Shown here: positions 24,581 through 40,226 of the stretch, one piece after another
Position numbering within the stretch: the stretch's first letter is position 1
Layout of the letters: every line of letters starts with the position of its first letter
Notes under the pieces: generated by a model
Seen by the model: only the letters and a program-made list of their open reading frames with translations
Told to the model about the DNA's origin: nothing
Databases searched by the model: none
Translations under genes and position numbers: made by a program
Virus record (IMG/VR): IMGVR_UViG_3300021957_000060
Coordinates: 1-49,711 of that record
Length of the DNA stretch: 49,711 nucleotides
Strand: one strand, 5' to 3'
Source of the DNA: a virus

Positions 24581-24730
24581 TTAATGCTCCACAGCATGTC
24601 CATAAATTGTACTGTCATTGTCTTTCCTTTTATTTTTTTTGCGTTCGGTCTTAGCTTTAGAAGACCTTGTTAATTTTTTAAACTTCTTCTTGCGGTCAAA
24701 CCTATCCCGCCTTTCTTCTTTTCTATCCAT
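24581..24730 (-). CDS. Very basic 49-aa protein
   Basis: Begins MDRKEERRDRFDRKKKFKKL and stays Lys/Arg-rich to residue 36. Start overlaps the previous stop (TAATG). Probably binds nucleic acid by charge; no known family recognised. A longer reading from 24802 lies within the previous gene and is less likely. Confidence 0.52.
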   Translation of the reverse strand: MDRKEERRDRFDRKKKFKKLTRSSKAKTERKKNKRKDNDSTIYGHAVEH

Positions 24731-24912
24731 TATAAAAGACCCAGTGCCTTTACGTTGCCTGCAATAATAAAGATGCATGTAACCATATGAGTAAGCCACC
24801 AAACAGTCCTAATACCAGCAACAGTATTAGCTTGCTTATCTGTCTCGCCAACCTTTTCGCCTAGACTTTTTGCCCATATCCGCCACCACTTAGTTAATGT
24901 CTTTTGTTTCAC
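24730..24912 (-). CDS. Small protein with C-terminal membrane segment
   Basis: 60 aa from a GTG at 24912 with AAGAGGGT five bases upstream; the ATG at 24966 has no such site. TLTKWWRIWAKSLGEK, then a hydrophobic C-terminal half (VWWLTHMVTCIFIIAGNVKAL). The type is common in marine phages; function unknown. Confidence 0.65.
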   Translation of the reverse strand: MKQKTLTKWWRIWAKSLGEKVGETDKQANTVAGIRTVWWLTHMVTCIFIIAGNVKALGLL

Positions 24913-25063
24913 GTTTACCCTCTTGCCTAAATCGTTTGTTGTAACCCCGCTTAATGCTCTTAGCAACTCCAGACTTTTTTAAATAGCAATAAAGTTTTTT
25001 AGCGTTAGTAAGAGCATCCCACTCTGCGCCACCCTTCAGTGGTATTCTTTTATTCTTCCTCAT
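24890..25063 (-). CDS. Small basic protein, unknown function
   Basis: 57 aa: RKNKRIPLKGGAEWDALTNA, then KKLYCYLKKSGVAKSIKRGY and a basic tail. It overlaps the upstream gene by 14 nt and the downstream gene by 23 nt. The KGG-E(W/Y)DALT-K pattern with a basic helix is one I associate with small marine phage proteins. The Shine-Dalgarno is poor. Confidence 0.58.
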   Translation of the reverse strand: MRKNKRIPLKGGAEWDALTNAKKLYCYLKKSGVAKSIKRGYNKRFRQEGKRETKDIN

Positions 25064-25702: not shown

Positions 25703-26168
25703 CTTTAAAGTCCTCTTTCTTCTTCGTGTTAATCCAGTTATCAGGTATACTATCTTCACTAAACCATTTAAAGTTATTTGCAGAGGCCCACTCACCATGT
25801 GACCGTCTTGTTCCATCTTTGCGTACCTTGGAAGCAGGCATTGGAGCGTTAGGGTTAGCAAACAAAAACACCAGTTCAACGTCAGTCGGTAGAACTTTTG
25901 CTATCCAGATATACTTAGAGTATTCTGCGCTGTCCCAGAACCGGCCCTTTGCTTCAAGCAGTATCTTCTTACCTTCTATTTCTTTAACAAAGTCTGGCTC
26001 GTACTTGTGAGCAACTGTGTACTCAACTTTGTCGGCATGAAACTCCCAAGCATCTAGGATGCCAGAGTGTAGCTCATATTCCCAGTTTGAGTCATAGCCT
26101 TTAACTAAGTCCTTTTCAACTGGGCGCTTCACCCTTGGTTTCCTATATCCTTTGCGTATTTTTTTCAT
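25692..26168 (-). CDS. Endonuclease I (T7 gp3-like Holliday junction resolvase)
   Basis: 158 aa from the ATG at 26168, which overlaps the upstream stop (ATGA) and has GGAG 5 nt before it. Catalytic PD-(D/E)xK core: YEPDF (D59) and LLEAKGRF (E72, K74), with E30 in the preceding helix as the likely fourth residue. The wording matches T7 endonuclease I (PDF ... ETKG), and GEW ... WINTKKK matches its C-terminus. It resolves branched DNA and, in T7, also breaks down host DNA. Length is close to T7's 149 aa. Confidence 0.9.
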   Translation of the reverse strand: MKKIRKGYRKPRVKRPVEKDLVKGYDSNWEYELHSGILDAWEFHADKVEYTVAHKYEPDFVKEIEGKKILLEAKGRFWDSAEYSKYIWIAKVLPTDVELVFLFANPNAPMPASKVRKDGTRRSHGEWASANNFKWFSEDSIPDNWINTKKKEDFKDEH

Positions 26169-26452
26169 CGCTGCTCCATCTTCCATGCAATGTCTTGGGG
26201 AGTTACGTCCTCAACATCCTTGTCGGGAAAGATTTTTATTAGTTGTTTTATTTTATTGCTCAGCCACTTCAGTGTGTAAAAACTAGTGTGTATTGTGCCT
26301 TGTGCCCACAAGTGTGTTTGTTTGGGCAGCATGTCTTTGAAGTTATCTTTAGTAATCTTAGAAGCCTCCTCGTCATTGAGGAGACTTTTAAGCCATTCAA
26401 TCTGCAAAGTTTCTGCATGCTTCCTTATACGCTTAGACTTCTTGCGATTCAT
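26165..26452 (-). CDS. Small protein, unknown function
   Basis: 95 aa, basic N-terminus (NRKKSKRIRKHAETLQIEWL), followed by a helix-rich body. It overlaps both neighbours by four bases (ATGA), so translation is probably coupled between two nuclease genes. The N-terminal pattern is widespread in marine phages; no function known. Confidence 0.7.
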   Translation of the reverse strand: MNRKKSKRIRKHAETLQIEWLKSLLNDEEASKITKDNFKDMLPKQTHLWAQGTIHTSFYTLKWLSNKIKQLIKIFPDKDVEDVTPQDIAWKMEQR

Positions 26453-27312
26453 AGTATCTCATCCACCTTTGGTTCTGCCTCTACATGTGTTAGATATTTA
26501 TAGCCAGTAGAGTATTTGAAAGTTCTGAGGCCAGCTCCATCGTTGGCATCCTTGTGGCATTCATACTTATACTTACACCACGTACAACCTTTAGGCAATT
26601 GCATGTTTCCTTTCTTGCCATCAGGTGTGGGAGTATAGCATAGTTCTGGTGGCGTGTCAAGTTTTAATTCGTCTAGCAGCGTATTTATTTTAGTATCTAT
26701 GTTCGGCTTATCTAAATCATCCGGCACATACATACAAAGCTCACCACTCTCTTTGTTGATAACAAGAAATCCACCCTTGTCTGTGCCCTCTGCTTTCTCG
26801 TAACCGGCAAGTTGTCCTAAGTAACCGAAGGGGTCATCATCGGCCAGTGTTCCTTTGACAAACTTATTGAAAGCAAACTTGGATGCAGACTTAACGTCTA
26901 CTACCTGACCGTTAATCTTACAGTCCATGTGTCCTACAATACCGTTGACTGTAACTTCTTTCTGCTCGTCGGTGACGTTGTGCTGTGCCATTCGTACAAG
27001 CATAAGTACAATCTCTTCAAGCACATGACCGTATAGAAACTTAATCTGCGTTGCGCCATCAACACTTCCACGGCCATTGGGGTCACGCTTTTCAAACCAC
27101 ATCTGGCGAGATGGCTTACCTACGTTAGACATTCGGACAGTGAAGTCAGTGTCTCTGGGTCTTGGTGTTGCCCAATGAAGGATAGCTTCTTTCATAGATG
27201 CCATCGTTTCATCAAGCGCCTCCTCCGTTATTGGAAGAGGCTCTCCGTTTGAAAGGTTTTCAAGCAGCCCGTAGATGTCAGGGACTATAGTATTAAGCGG
27301 CTTCTGGTTCAT
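26449..27312 (-). CDS. PD-(D/E)XK exonuclease, Cas4/RecB-like
   Basis: 287 aa. Nuclease core: GHMDCKINGQVVDVKSASKF gives D130, D139 and K141, and the QLAGY motif (Q167, Y171) follows as in RecB/Cas4 nucleases. Cysteines C225, C243, C246 and C252 (CTWCKYKYEC) may bind an Fe-S cluster or zinc; their arrangement differs from canonical Cas4, which has an N-terminal first Cys. Likely role: DNA end processing for recombination or host DNA breakdown. Located in the replication block, not with any CRISPR array. Confidence 0.83.
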   Translation of the reverse strand: MNQKPLNTIVPDIYGLLENLSNGEPLPITEEALDETMASMKEAILHWATPRPRDTDFTVRMSNVGKPSRQMWFEKRDPNGRGSVDGATQIKFLYGHVLEEIVLMLVRMAQHNVTDEQKEVTVNGIVGHMDCKINGQVVDVKSASKFAFNKFVKGTLADDDPFGYLGQLAGYEKAEGTDKGGFLVINKESGELCMYVPDDLDKPNIDTKINTLLDELKLDTPPELCYTPTPDGKKGNMQLPKGCTWCKYKYECHKDANDGAGLRTFKYSTGYKYLTHVEAEPKVDEIL

Positions 27313-36713: not shown

Positions 36714-37130
36714 TTACTTGGCAGACAGAATCTCAAGGATTTTATCCATCTTCGCTTCTAGCGAATCAACTCGCTGAGTCAAAGTCGAAGACTTCTTGGG
36801 AGCCTTGGAAGCCTTTGGCTCCACTGAAGCTTTAGCTTTTCTGGAAGCCTTTGGCTTCGCCTTAGCCTTAGATTTCTTGGTAGAAATCATGTGGAGGAAC
36901 TGCTCTGGGACACAATCCCATTCAAACCATTCTGAGACATCAGAATGGGTCATGAAGCTATCGGAGTCTTTGTAGTGCTTGTTAATCACTGCATTGAAAA
37001 CCTTGGTCAATCCATATCTCTCCGAAGGAGACTTGGCTTGGATACTGGCAAAGTGGGAAGCTACGGCAAACACTTGTCGAGCAGTGGCAATTTGATTGGC
37101 ATCGATTGAGTTGAAGTTTGATTTGGCCAT
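36714..37130 (-). CDS. First early gene: basic-linker protein with C-terminal coiled coil
   Basis: 138 aa. Folded N-terminal ~80 residues (ATARQVFAVASHFASIQA; YKDSDSFMTHSDVSEWFEWD), a Lys/Ala-rich linker (residues 85-112, KKSKAKAKPKASRKAKAS) like histone H1 tails, and a C-terminal heptad helix (LTQRVDSLEAKMDKILEIL) likely to oligomerise. It is the first gene of the leftward block and has a 630-nt leader. The Shine-Dalgarno AAGGAA lies in the 3' arm of a long inverted repeat. Position and charge suggest an early DNA-binding or host-takeover protein; no family recognised. Confidence 0.72.
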   Translation of the reverse strand: MAKSNFNSIDANQIATARQVFAVASHFASIQAKSPSERYGLTKVFNAVINKHYKDSDSFMTHSDVSEWFEWDCVPEQFLHMISTKKSKAKAKPKASRKAKASVEPKASKAPKKSSTLTQRVDSLEAKMDKILEILSAK

Positions 37131-37134
37131 TATA

Positions 37135-37202
37135 GTATTCCTTATTTATTAAGTTAAAAAGTTCATTCTGAACTTCTTTTTAACTTAATAAATAAGGAAT
37201 AC
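37135..37202. repeat. 68-nt inverted repeat containing the Shine-Dalgarno of the first early gene
   Basis: Outer 25 bp pair perfectly, then a 3-nt bulge and a further 6 bp (AGTTCA/TGAACT) around a 3-nt loop. On the leftward transcript the 3' arm ends in AAGGAATAC four bases before the ATG at 37130, so folding would hide the ribosome binding site. Confidence 0.92.
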
Positions 37203-37205
37203 TTT

Positions 37206-37246
37206 TTAGTATCTCTATAACCTTTTATAGGTTATAGAGATACTAA
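37206..37246. repeat. Perfect 17-bp inverted repeat
   Basis: Arms 37206-37222 and 37230-37246 are exact complements (TTAGTATCTCTATAACC and its reverse), loop of 7 nt. Three bases from the preceding hairpin. No T-run on either side, so not an obvious terminator. Confidence 0.93.
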
Positions 37247-37256
37247 GTCGACCTTT

Positions 37257-37563
37257 AAGACTTTTAAAGTCTTTACCGTGCGGCATTCCCTATCGGGAAT
37301 TTCCTGTAGGCGATAGAATCTTAGGAGACTTTAAAAGTCTCAAGGGAGGTTGATTAGTCGTAGACTAAAAAGCTTGTAAGTCGTTGAAATGCTTGGAAGT
37401 CTCTGGAGTAAACCTAAAGGTTTAAAAAAGCTTCAAAGCCTCCCTAGTTTTGTAAACTAGAAAGCTAGTCACCAACTCTAAGACTTTTAAAGTCTTCAAA
37501 GGGGTGCGGGCGTTAAGATTCTATAGAATCTATGGAGATTTTAAAGACTCTCTGGAGTCTTTA
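37257..37563. repeat. Cluster of short palindromes, three sharing AGACTTTWAAAGTCT
   Basis: In 307 nt: 37257-37273, 37325-37341 and 37480-37496 (all with AGACTTTWAAAGTCT), 37285-37300 (ATTCCC/GGGAAT), 37354-37368 (TTAGTC/GACTAA), 37410-37423 (AAACC/GGTTT), 37444-37460 (CTAGTTT/AAACTAG), 37516-37531 (AGATTCTATAGAATCT, perfect) and 37542-37563 (TAAAGACTC/GAGTCTTTA). Each could be a dimer binding site in DNA or a small stem in RNA. Confidence 0.88.
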
Positions 37564-37702
37564 GGGGGTGGGCAAGCTGCCATGGGGGGGGTACTGGGAT
37601 ATATATACAATCATATACATTTTATGGAGATATGCCATGTAAACCAGATAGTGCCGCAGCTTTAAAGGCTTTAAAGGGAGGGGCAAGGTTTGGGAAGTCG
37701 GG
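37564..37702 (+). other. Two G-rich tracts with quadruplex-type spacing
   Basis: Tract 1: G runs at 37564-37568, 37570-37572, 37584-37591 and 37596-37598. Tract 2: 37676-37678, 37680-37683, 37692-37694 and 37700-37702. Unusual in an AT-rich genome. Formation of quadruplexes is only a possibility. Confidence 0.6.
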
Positions 37703-37769
37703 CGGCTTCCAAGGGCTTTAAAGGCAGGTGCAGTATACATATGCTATAACCCCGGTGGGCTTAATATCT

Positions 37770-37798
37770 ATTATACCCGTAGAATAAGCATCTGTCAA
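37770..37798 (-). promoter_or_regulatory. Consensus sigma70 promoter for the leftward early block
   Basis: Minus strand: TTGACA (37793-37798), 17-bp spacer, TATAAT (37770-37775), a perfect consensus, with TACGGG directly before the -10. AT-rich upstream sequence to about 37816. Expected start near 37763, giving a leader of about 630 nt before the first early gene. Confidence 0.92.
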
Positions 37799-37886
37799 GT
37801 TTTATTTCATTTATTTGCAGGTCTTCCTTCTATATACTATATATAGGGATAATATAAGTATATTATGAAAAAAAGTTATAAAAAAC

Positions 37887-37915
37887 TTGACAAGACTCAA
37901 TATTACGGGTATACT
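37887..37915 (+). promoter_or_regulatory. Sigma70 promoter for the rightward packaging and virion block
   Basis: TTGACA (37887-37892), 17-bp spacer, TATACT (37910-37915). It shares CTTGACA and TACGGGTATA with the leftward promoter. Expected start near 37922, 29 nt before the small terminase ATG. Confidence 0.9.
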
Positions 37916-37950: not shown

Positions 37951-38349
37951 ATGCCTGACAAACAACTAACCACCAAACAACAAGCGTTTCTTGACAATCT
38001 GACGACTTGTGGCGGAGATGTTAAACACGCAGCAGAGTTAGCAGGCTATGCAGAGGGCACACATTACACAGTAGTTAAAGCATTGAAGTCTGAAATACTA
38101 GACATAGCTACAAACATACTGGCGCTCAATGCACCTAAAGCAGCTTCTAAGCTTATTCAGATTATGGATAGCCCAGAACCTATACCACAAGCTAACATGC
38201 GTATACAAGCTGCACAGCAAATCCTAGACCGTGTAGGACTAGGCAAAACAGAACGCCTAGATGTAAATGTAAGTTCTGGTGGGGGTTTGTTTGTTATACC
38301 CGCCAAGAAGGAGGTAGTGATAGATGGAGAATATACGGAGGTCGAGTAG
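37951..38349 (+). CDS. Terminase small subunit
   Basis: 132 aa. N-terminal helix-turn-helix: LTTKQQAFLDNLTTCGGDVK then HAAELAGYAEGTHYTVVKAL, the arrangement of Terminase_2-type small subunits that recognise phage DNA for packaging. A helical middle (residues 45-95) for ring assembly. First gene of the rightward block, followed by the large subunit after one small gene. Confidence 0.82.
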   Translation: MPDKQLTTKQQAFLDNLTTCGGDVKHAAELAGYAEGTHYTVVKALKSEILDIATNILALNAPKAASKLIQIMDSPEPIPQANMRIQAAQQILDRVGLGKTERLDVNVSSGGGLFVIPAKKEVVIDGEYTEVE

Positions 38350-38557
38350 CACCATACCGTTTGGTTATAAGATAGATGAGTCTAATAACCAAATGCTAGA
38401 GCCAGTACAAGAAGAACTAGACATGCTGGACAAGGTACTACCGCTTATAAGGGAAAAGACCCTAAGCCTCAGAGAAGGCAGCATGTGGTTGACCCACGAG
38501 ACAGGACGCTCAATATCACACATGGGATTAAAGAAAATTGCAGAACAAAGAAAATGA
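38324..38557 (+). CDS. Small protein resembling the recombinase domain of serine recombinases
   Basis: 77 aa. PFGYKIDESNNQMLEPVQEE, then KVLPLIREKTLSLREGSMWL, then GRSISHMGLKKIAEQRK: this is the order of the DNA-binding Recombinase domain of large serine recombinases (RxPxGY, helices, SLREIAxxLN, TxxTVxRIL). There is no catalytic Ser domain in the window, so it should act as a DNA-binding module. It overlaps the small terminase by 26 nt and the large terminase by 20 nt, suggesting a packaging role. Confidence 0.65.
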   Translation: MENIRRSSSTIPFGYKIDESNNQMLEPVQEELDMLDKVLPLIREKTLSLREGSMWLTHETGRSISHMGLKKIAEQRK

Positions 38558-40226
38558 TTGGGACATCAACCCCGAAAATTACCTAACTGACGAAGAAGGT
38601 AACTTTAAGCTCAGAGCTGACGGAACTCCCCGCAAGAAAGGTGGTAGACCAAAAGGCTCAAAGGGCAGAGGGTACACATACCACTCAGAAACAAAAGCAA
38701 AACAAGCAGCAAAGCGCAGCGTAAAAGACAAAGAGAAGAAACTCAAGTCAGCGCAGAACAAAATAGATAACTACAAGAAGTCTATAAAGAAAACTAAAAA
38801 GACTCTTAGCAAGCTCGAAAACGAGAACGATACAAAACTCGTAAGCGCCGAGGAGCTGGACGACATTCCATCAGCACTGCAAGCTGAAGCACAAGAGAAT
38901 GTTATCTTCAAGGCTAATGAAGGCCCACAGGAAGACTTTCTTGCAGCAGGTGAGACAGACGTACTGTACGGTGGTGCCGCAGGAGGAGGTAAGTCATATG
39001 CTATGCTTATTGACCCTTTACGCTTTGCTCACCGTCCAGCCCATAGAGCACTAATTATTCGACGCTCTATGCCTGAACTGCGAGAACTTATTGACAAGAG
39101 TCGGGAGTTGTATCCAAAAGCATTTCCCGGCGCTAAGTACAAAGAAGTAGAGAAGCTCTGGATATTCCCAAGCGGAGCAAAGATGGAGTTCGGGTTCTTG
39201 GAGCGTGATGCAGATGTATACCGCTATCAAGGTCAAGCATACAGCTTCATAGGCTTTGACGAGATTACACATCTTCCCACAGAGTTTGCTTGGAACTACT
39301 TAGCTTCACGACTACGTACTACAGACTCAGAGATTGAGACGTACATGCGTTGTACAGCTAACCCCGGCGGTTCGGGGGCTAACTGGGTAAAGAAGAGATA
39401 CATAGACCCGTCGCCACCCAATGAAAGCTTTAGGGGCGCAGATGGTCTAACAAGAAAGTTTATACCGGCTAGATTACAGGATAACCCCTACCTAGCTAAA
39501 GACGGACGATACGAGCAGATGCTAAATGCTCTACCGCCAACACAGCGTAAGCAACTGTTGGACGGTAACTGGGATGTTGCAGAAGGCGCAGCATTCACAG
39601 AGTTTAATCCGTTTGACCATGTAATTACACCCTTTGAGATTCCAATACACTGGGAACGCAGCAAAGGCATTGACTACGGTTATGCTTCAGAGAGTGCATG
39701 TGTATGGGGCGCAGTTGACCCAAGTGACGGTACACTGATTATATATCGTGAACTGTACCGCAAAGGTTTGTTGGGCACTGACCTTGCAAGCATGATTACA
39801 GAGATGGAGTATGAAGACCCCTTCTCGGTAGCAGGAGTGCTCGATACAGCGTGTTGGAGCCGAACAGGTACTACAGGCCCAACAGTAGGAGAAACCCTTC
39901 AGAGAGCCGGACATAAGCTCAGAAGGGCAGACAAAAACAGAATACAGGGAAAGATACAGATTCACGAATACTTGAAGCTCAAGCAAAGCGGTAGACCCAA
40001 AATACAAATATTTAATACATGTCCTAACCTGATACGCGAGCTTCAAAGTATTCCACTAGATAAGTCTAAGCCAGAAGACGTAGATACGAATGCATCAGAC
40101 CACGCATACGATGCACTAAGATACTTAATAATGGCTAGACCACGTATCAATGATACAATAAACCAACTTAGACAGTTTAGAAGAGAATCACATTTTAATC
40201 CGTCTGACTCAACATTTGGATATTAA
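38538..40226 (+). CDS. Terminase large subunit, TTG start, with basic AT-hook-like N-terminus
   Basis: 562 aa. ATPase: Walker A GGAAGGGKS (residues 145-153) and Walker B FIGFDE (D241, E242). Nuclease: GIDYGYA (D379), VLDTACW (D436), DHAYDALRY (D521, D525). The frame opens at 38532 and has no ATG or GTG before the Walker motif, so the start must be the TTG at 38538 or a frameshift from the upstream gene. The first ~125 residues are extra compared with T7-type subunits: KKGGRPKGSKGRGY is AT-hook-like, then a Lys-rich coiled coil (residues 52-95). The enzyme pumps and cuts DNA at the portal. Confidence 0.93.
   Translation: MQNKENDWDINPENYLTDEEGNFKLRADGTPRKKGGRPKGSKGRGYTYHSETKAKQAAKRSVKDKEKKLKSAQNKIDNYKKSIKKTKKTLSKLENENDTKLVSAEELDDIPSALQAEAQENVIFKANEGPQEDFLAAGETDVLYGGAAGGGKSYAMLIDPLRFAHRPAHRALIIRRSMPELRELIDKSRELYPKAFPGAKYKEVEKLWIFPSGAKMEFGFLERDADVYRYQGQAYSFIGFDEITHLPTEFAWNYLASRLRTTDSEIETYMRCTANPGGSGANWVKKRYIDPSPPNESFRGADGLTRKFIPARLQDNPYLAKDGRYEQMLNALPPTQRKQLLDGNWDVAEGAAFTEFNPFDHVITPFEIPIHWERSKGIDYGYASESACVWGAVDPSDGTLIIYRELYRKGLLGTDLASMITEMEYEDPFSVAGVLDTACWSRTGTTGPTVGETLQRAGHKLRRADKNRIQGKIQIHEYLKLKQSGRPKIQIFNTCPNLIRELQSIPLDKSKPEDVDTNASDHAYDALRYLIMARPRINDTINQLRQFRRESHFNPSDSTFGY

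Follow-up and report, generated by a model that had tools for sequence, protein, structure and literature searches.

Phage lambda keeps two divergent major promoters, PL and PR, under one factor whose specificity defines immunity. In Cluster A mycobacteriophages, which have lysogeny, a known repressor is paired with operators and stoperators at 20–30 sites per genome (accessible text of PMC6550527 and PMC9283540). For HMO-2011-type marine podoviruses, the main text of PMC9038755 does not contain the word ‘promoter’, the pelagiphage transcriptome of PMC12753301 covers, in its accessible text, other phage groups, and the accessible text of PMC10504331 reports sigma-70 promoters in an unrelated pelagiphage. 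We found in the literature neither an account of gene timing in HMO-2011-related phages without their own polymerase nor a description of the divergent promoter hub reported here.

The window, meaning the whole stretch of DNA analysed, is an IMG/VR virus record of 49,711 bases from an HMO-2011-related marine podovirus, not an autographivirus. Its PHROG matches form a podovirus gene set (ribonucleotide reductase, Cas4-type exonuclease, DNA polymerase, primase-helicase, terminase, portal, major head protein and tail fibres). Over the hub–terminase–portal region the nearest named phage is Pelagibacter phage HTVC115P (68.9% identity over 49% of the query), followed, after the kin of HTVC115P, by HMO-2011 (64.6% identity over 18% of the query) and Roseobacter phages. 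The window thus resembles the HMO-2011-type marine podoviruses, as the accessible text of PMC9038755 describes them, in its related terminase and portal genes, the similarity that characterizes the group, and in yielding no T7-type RNA polymerase. Four features define the hub and its right-hand neighbours, the promoters coming from a consensus promoter scan and the genes from PHROG matches:

37770–37798, minus strand: leftward promoter, TTGACA - GATGCTTATTCTACGGG - TATAAT, 17-nt spacer
37887–37915, plus strand: rightward promoter, TTGACA - AGACTCAATATTACGGG - TATACT, 17-nt spacer
37951–38349, plus strand: terminase small subunit (TerS, PHROG 2538), first gene of the rightward block
38538–40226, plus strand: terminase large subunit (terL), the query for finding relatives

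The initial annotation had proposed twin sigma-70 promoters that share a motif and drive opposite genome arms, and both parts hold, with exact positions. The two spacers end in TACGGG, and TACGGGTATA occurs exactly twice in the 49,711 bases, once at each promoter (37772–37781, minus strand; 37904–37913, plus strand). The leftward promoter faces the replication and early genes, and the rightward one faces terS–terL–portal–capsid. TTGACA and TATAAT hexamers stand 16–18 nt apart, as in sigma-70 promoters, and the pattern TTGACA-N15..19-TATAMT is found three times in the window against 0.16 expected, a count reached by none of 100 shuffles. The further proposal that host polymerase reads both blocks, in contrast to T7, is supported as well: the phage single-subunit RNA polymerase of T7-like (Autographiviridae) transcription (PF00940) was found in none of the 23 records searched, window included, and was detected in the positive control, pelagiphage HTVC019P. 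The contrast with T7 is unsurprising, because the window belongs to an HMO-2011-related podovirus rather than an autographivirus.

The arrangement is conserved among relatives. Searches with terL, together with named phages, gave 215 loci with a terL match, 148 of them with more than 1,300 bp upstream of terL. Requiring at least 11 of 12 consensus bases in each promoter, we found a divergent pair in 144 of these 148, and shorter loci added 33 for a total of 177; many loci are repeats of one contig, and the 177 pairs reduce to 98 distinct promoter regions, window included. The pair is missing from four eligible loci: L121, L125, HMO-2011 and CRP-1. The last two differ from the window both in having no divergent hub beside terL and in carrying integrases; integrase PF00589, a lysogeny gene of the kind expected with a repressor–operator immunity system, was found solely in these two of the 23 records searched. 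Both -35 boxes read TTGACA in all 98 distinct hubs, which were chosen by the consensus scan itself and which, whole or as dereplicated subsets, underlie the word counts below. The two -35 boxes lie 6 to 124 bp apart (median 39). In a whole-record scan both hub promoters showed the full TTGACA/TATAMT in 28 of 29 records, and one of the two did so in the remaining record (G008, leftward -10 box TACAAT). In HTVC103P the consensus scan shows only the early-side promoter, and a weaker -35 box can be made out by eye on the terS side.

The promoter pair itself is ordinary; what is unusual is a short element, specific to each lineage, whose two copies evolve in concert. Comparison across phages places it as follows:

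37776–37782, minus strand: co-varying heptamer of the leftward promoter, CTACGGG, abutting the -10 box on its upstream side
37903–37909, plus strand: co-varying heptamer of the rightward promoter, TTACGGG, abutting the -10 box on its upstream side

The element is about 7 nt long, it differs between phages, and its two copies change together beyond what phylogeny and base composition give. Among the 98 distinct hubs, the 6-mer beside the -10 box takes 33 different forms on the right and 44 on the left, and left and right words agree at five or more of six bases in 60. After dereplication by terL, a phage's own pair matched at 4.27 of 6 bases against 2.42 for exchanged pairs (n = 79) and 4.13 against 2.33 (n = 55), and stricter dereplication gave 4.00 against 2.39 (n = 31) and 4.17 against 2.25 (n = 18); at each of these four sizes none of 20,000 permutations did as well as the own pairs. 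Each of spacer positions 1–7 upstream of the -10 box is significant for the left/right match, position 9 gives a weak signal at n = 55 only, and positions 8 and 10–16 are not significant. The 15 bases upstream of the -35 box and most positions downstream of the -10 box carry no match signal, the isolated weak exceptions outside the spacer being downstream positions 7, 11 and 12 and upstream positions 16–20, the latter a region where both promoters overlap in short hubs.

Two strong promoters could resemble each other through common descent or by chance, given that the overall consensus is common to both and that some 6-mers will agree by chance. We consider this extremely unlikely. It is refuted by the permutations above and by a phylogenetically controlled comparison, unless the terL tree (FastTree) on which the latter is based is badly wrong. 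Among pairs on non-overlapping paths of that tree, 15 supported co-variation, one opposed it and two were ties when the rightward word differed at three or more of six positions; at two or more of six the result was 17 for, none against and five ties. A control stretch of the spacer (bases 9–14 from the -10 box) gave 10 for, four against and six ties. With strong/weak base class held equal, identity within a phage was 0.914, compared with 0.644 in permuted data (n = 98), and none of 3,000 permutations reached the observed value. Taken together, these controls leave neither ancestry nor composition nor general similarity of the spacers as an explanation of the pattern. A lineage-specific site sequence common to several promoters of one phage, as in an immunity system, is present.

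Matching is not universal, and 18 of 55 dereplicated hubs agree at three or fewer of six bases. L012 combines CAGCAC with TACGGG, and it and L186, both from the window's own clade, keep TACGGG on the right only. Some poorly matching pairs contain words that look like reverse complements (L180, with CAGGTG and TACCTG; L165; L157; L023). Reverse-complement matching gave no more than a hint in the 18 poor pairs (2.56 against 1.80, n = 55) and showed no excess overall (1.96 against 1.89, n = 55).

The segment beside the -10 box is where core polymerase and sigma contact the spacer. It might accordingly set promoter strength or melting, with both promoters of a phage drifting to one optimum that is intrinsic to the polymerase or specific to the host, and the avoidance of the extended -10 motif at hub promoters (present in 2 of 196) would fit such tuning. 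We nevertheless regard this explanation as improbable: identity lies far above what base class explains, phages whose terminases are almost the same can carry different words (L137 and L019, tree distance 0.027), and a promoter of another type in the same genomes keeps one consensus. That promoter and the gene downstream of it are:

26632–26660, minus strand: third strong promoter from the consensus scan, extended -10 type (TATGCTATACT), without TACGGG
26165–26452, minus strand: core 95-aa gene, function unassigned, a regulator candidate

The extended -10 promoter is conserved in the window's clade, some 180–200 nt upstream of the 95-aa gene. In the window it sits at the end of the Cas4-type exonuclease gene.

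A purely mutational origin was also weighed. On this view the two promoters are the arms of an imperfect inverted repeat, and template switching or conversion could copy one arm onto the other with no reader involved. In its favour, a 13-nt inverted repeat (92%) made up of the elements spans the hub, and the -35 boxes lie close together. This, too, seems unlikely to us. Co-variation ends after 7 nt, whereas the -35 side of the spacer and the flanks, which are equally parts of the arms, show almost none, and in the HTVC115P clade the same kind of word recurs at a third promoter about 3 kb away, near the portal gene. Counted over loci, which are not independent genomes, a GGTG-like word ends 93 of 93 non-extended consensus matches in that clade (five matches have an extended -10), and a GGTG-type promoter lies near the portal gene in 35 of the 37 loci that reach this gene. 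Local copying from one inverted arm to the other is hard to reconcile with a word that recurs over kilobases. No other listed consensus promoter in the window's own clade carries the hub word.

We therefore turn to what might read the word. A reader was not found among the genes tested, those far from the hub being covered in 14 genomes, and the same set yielded no repressor gene tracking the site as in an immunity system. A partial-correlation scan of 31 core families in the 14 genomes gave no convincing covariation, the best family being SSB (partial r 0.41). Most other families within about 8 kb include closely similar proteins from genomes whose words differ. One gene beside the hub encodes a small protein:

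38324–38557, plus strand: 77-aa protein between terS and terL, with a predicted fold similar to the DNA-binding recombinase domain of large serine integrases

This protein is present in all 98 loci, and its AF2 model (pLDDT 94) has serine integrases as top Foldseek matches (probability 0.96, E 0.1), which suggests that it may bind DNA. It was rejected as the reader, since the region of the presumed recognition helix stays almost constant between phages of different word (for example, L036 and L143). The first leftward genes (F2/F21 and F3/F24) were rejected in turn, having been swapped without a change of word (L180 and L183; L137, L140, L163 and L181), and a supposed HTH at 24730–24966 resembled, by eye, a family with a hydrophobic tail instead. 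For the 95-aa gene, newly fetched relatives carry TACGGG in every record with a visible hub, which limits the covariation test; in G012, a 70% identical protein occurs with hub words other than TACGGG, and nothing in the PDB matches the AF2 model (pLDDT 82; best E 1.9).

TerS has a hypervariable, modular N-terminal half and is otherwise conserved, in the window as in its relatives; the N-terminal half may track the packaging site. As TerS is the first rightward gene, its modular half would also suit a word that is no transcriptional signal at all, for example a site for packaging or replication that has been duplicated around the hub. That possibility appears very unlikely, for the word stays in register with the -10 box at both promoters and near the portal gene, and TerS N-termini are common to different words and differ within one word. 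The latter observation also led us to reject TerS as the reader. The initial annotation had suggested that TACGGG is bound by a phage factor acting as a switch. The variation of the word between phages and its co-variation within a phage over 7 nt lend this idea genuine support; none of the plausible neighbouring genes tracks the word. The reader may be encoded elsewhere in the phage, may be a small gene that is quickly replaced, or may be a host protein.

On its early side, the hub is followed by a long leader:

37131–37763, minus strand: untranslated, strongly structured leader of the leftward transcript, from folding against shuffles
36714–37130, minus strand: first leftward gene (138 aa, family F2), with a Lys/Ala-rich linker and, by eye, a likely coiled-coil tail

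The minimum free energy of the window's leader is -204.2 kcal/mol, compared with a mean of -126.3 for shuffled sequences (z -11.9), and the leader forms about a dozen hairpins, the last of which, by eye, pairs the likely ribosome-binding site of the first gene. Across 46 distinct leaders, the untranslated stretch ahead of the first gene spans 480–951 nt. With 12 shuffles for each, a z of -4 or below was reached by 35 of the 36 leaders that precede F2-type genes, by four of the 10 that precede F21-type genes and by eight of 43 control stretches. Rfam gave only matches below gathering scores, microRNA-like, to hairpins of the leader, and the F2 gene has no Pfam or PHROG match. In one sub-clade the first leftward gene is F21 (for example, L137 and L145), which alternates with F2 at the same place and whose proteins vary in the N-terminal part but are conserved in the middle.

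The most likely mechanism, which we infer from the paired words, is that both promoters share an operator for one regulator. More specifically, we think it probable that the heptamer pair is an operator at host sigma-70 promoters, read by one trans-acting factor of fast-changing specificity. The hub would then be a strong host sigma-70 promoter pair firing in opposite directions, each promoter carrying one 7-bp operator-like element at about -13 to -19. A single DNA-binding factor, more likely encoded by the phage than by the host, would recognize both copies of the element and so place early and structural transcription under one regulator; as among immunity groups, its specificity would shift rapidly from one lineage to the next. 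Because the -35 and -10 boxes are already at consensus, classical activation is less likely than repression, or than gating by a factor seated between the two boxes.

Such a hub would share with the lambda-type PL/PR system two divergent major promoters and, as proposed here, one common factor. It departs from that system in having a single 7-bp element per promoter in place of lambda's set of dyad operators, and no cI/Cro-like gene was found (HTH_3 in none of the 23 records searched). Like the Cluster A sites, as far as the accessible text of the papers cited above describes them, the words are short, asymmetric, held in one orientation to transcription, located inside promoters (as some Cluster A sites are) and distinct between related phages. 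By the same descriptions, they differ in that most clades have two sites, always abutting the -10 box, and that no repressor or integrase was found in the window.

It is a tentative reading, and one we hold with considerable doubt, that in an abundant and apparently lytic marine lineage both genome arms run from a hub with a phage-specific 7-bp tag whose reader belongs to an undescribed family, the tag diversifying as immunity types do in a lineage that yielded no lysogeny genes. The hub and its co-evolving tag offer a concrete starting point in the search for the missing regulator, and uncultured phages could be assigned to regulatory types simply by their tag. If the tag is read in this way, two related phages in the same cell could either disregard or silence each other's transcription, and transcriptional incompatibility between lytic phages becomes testable through seven bases.
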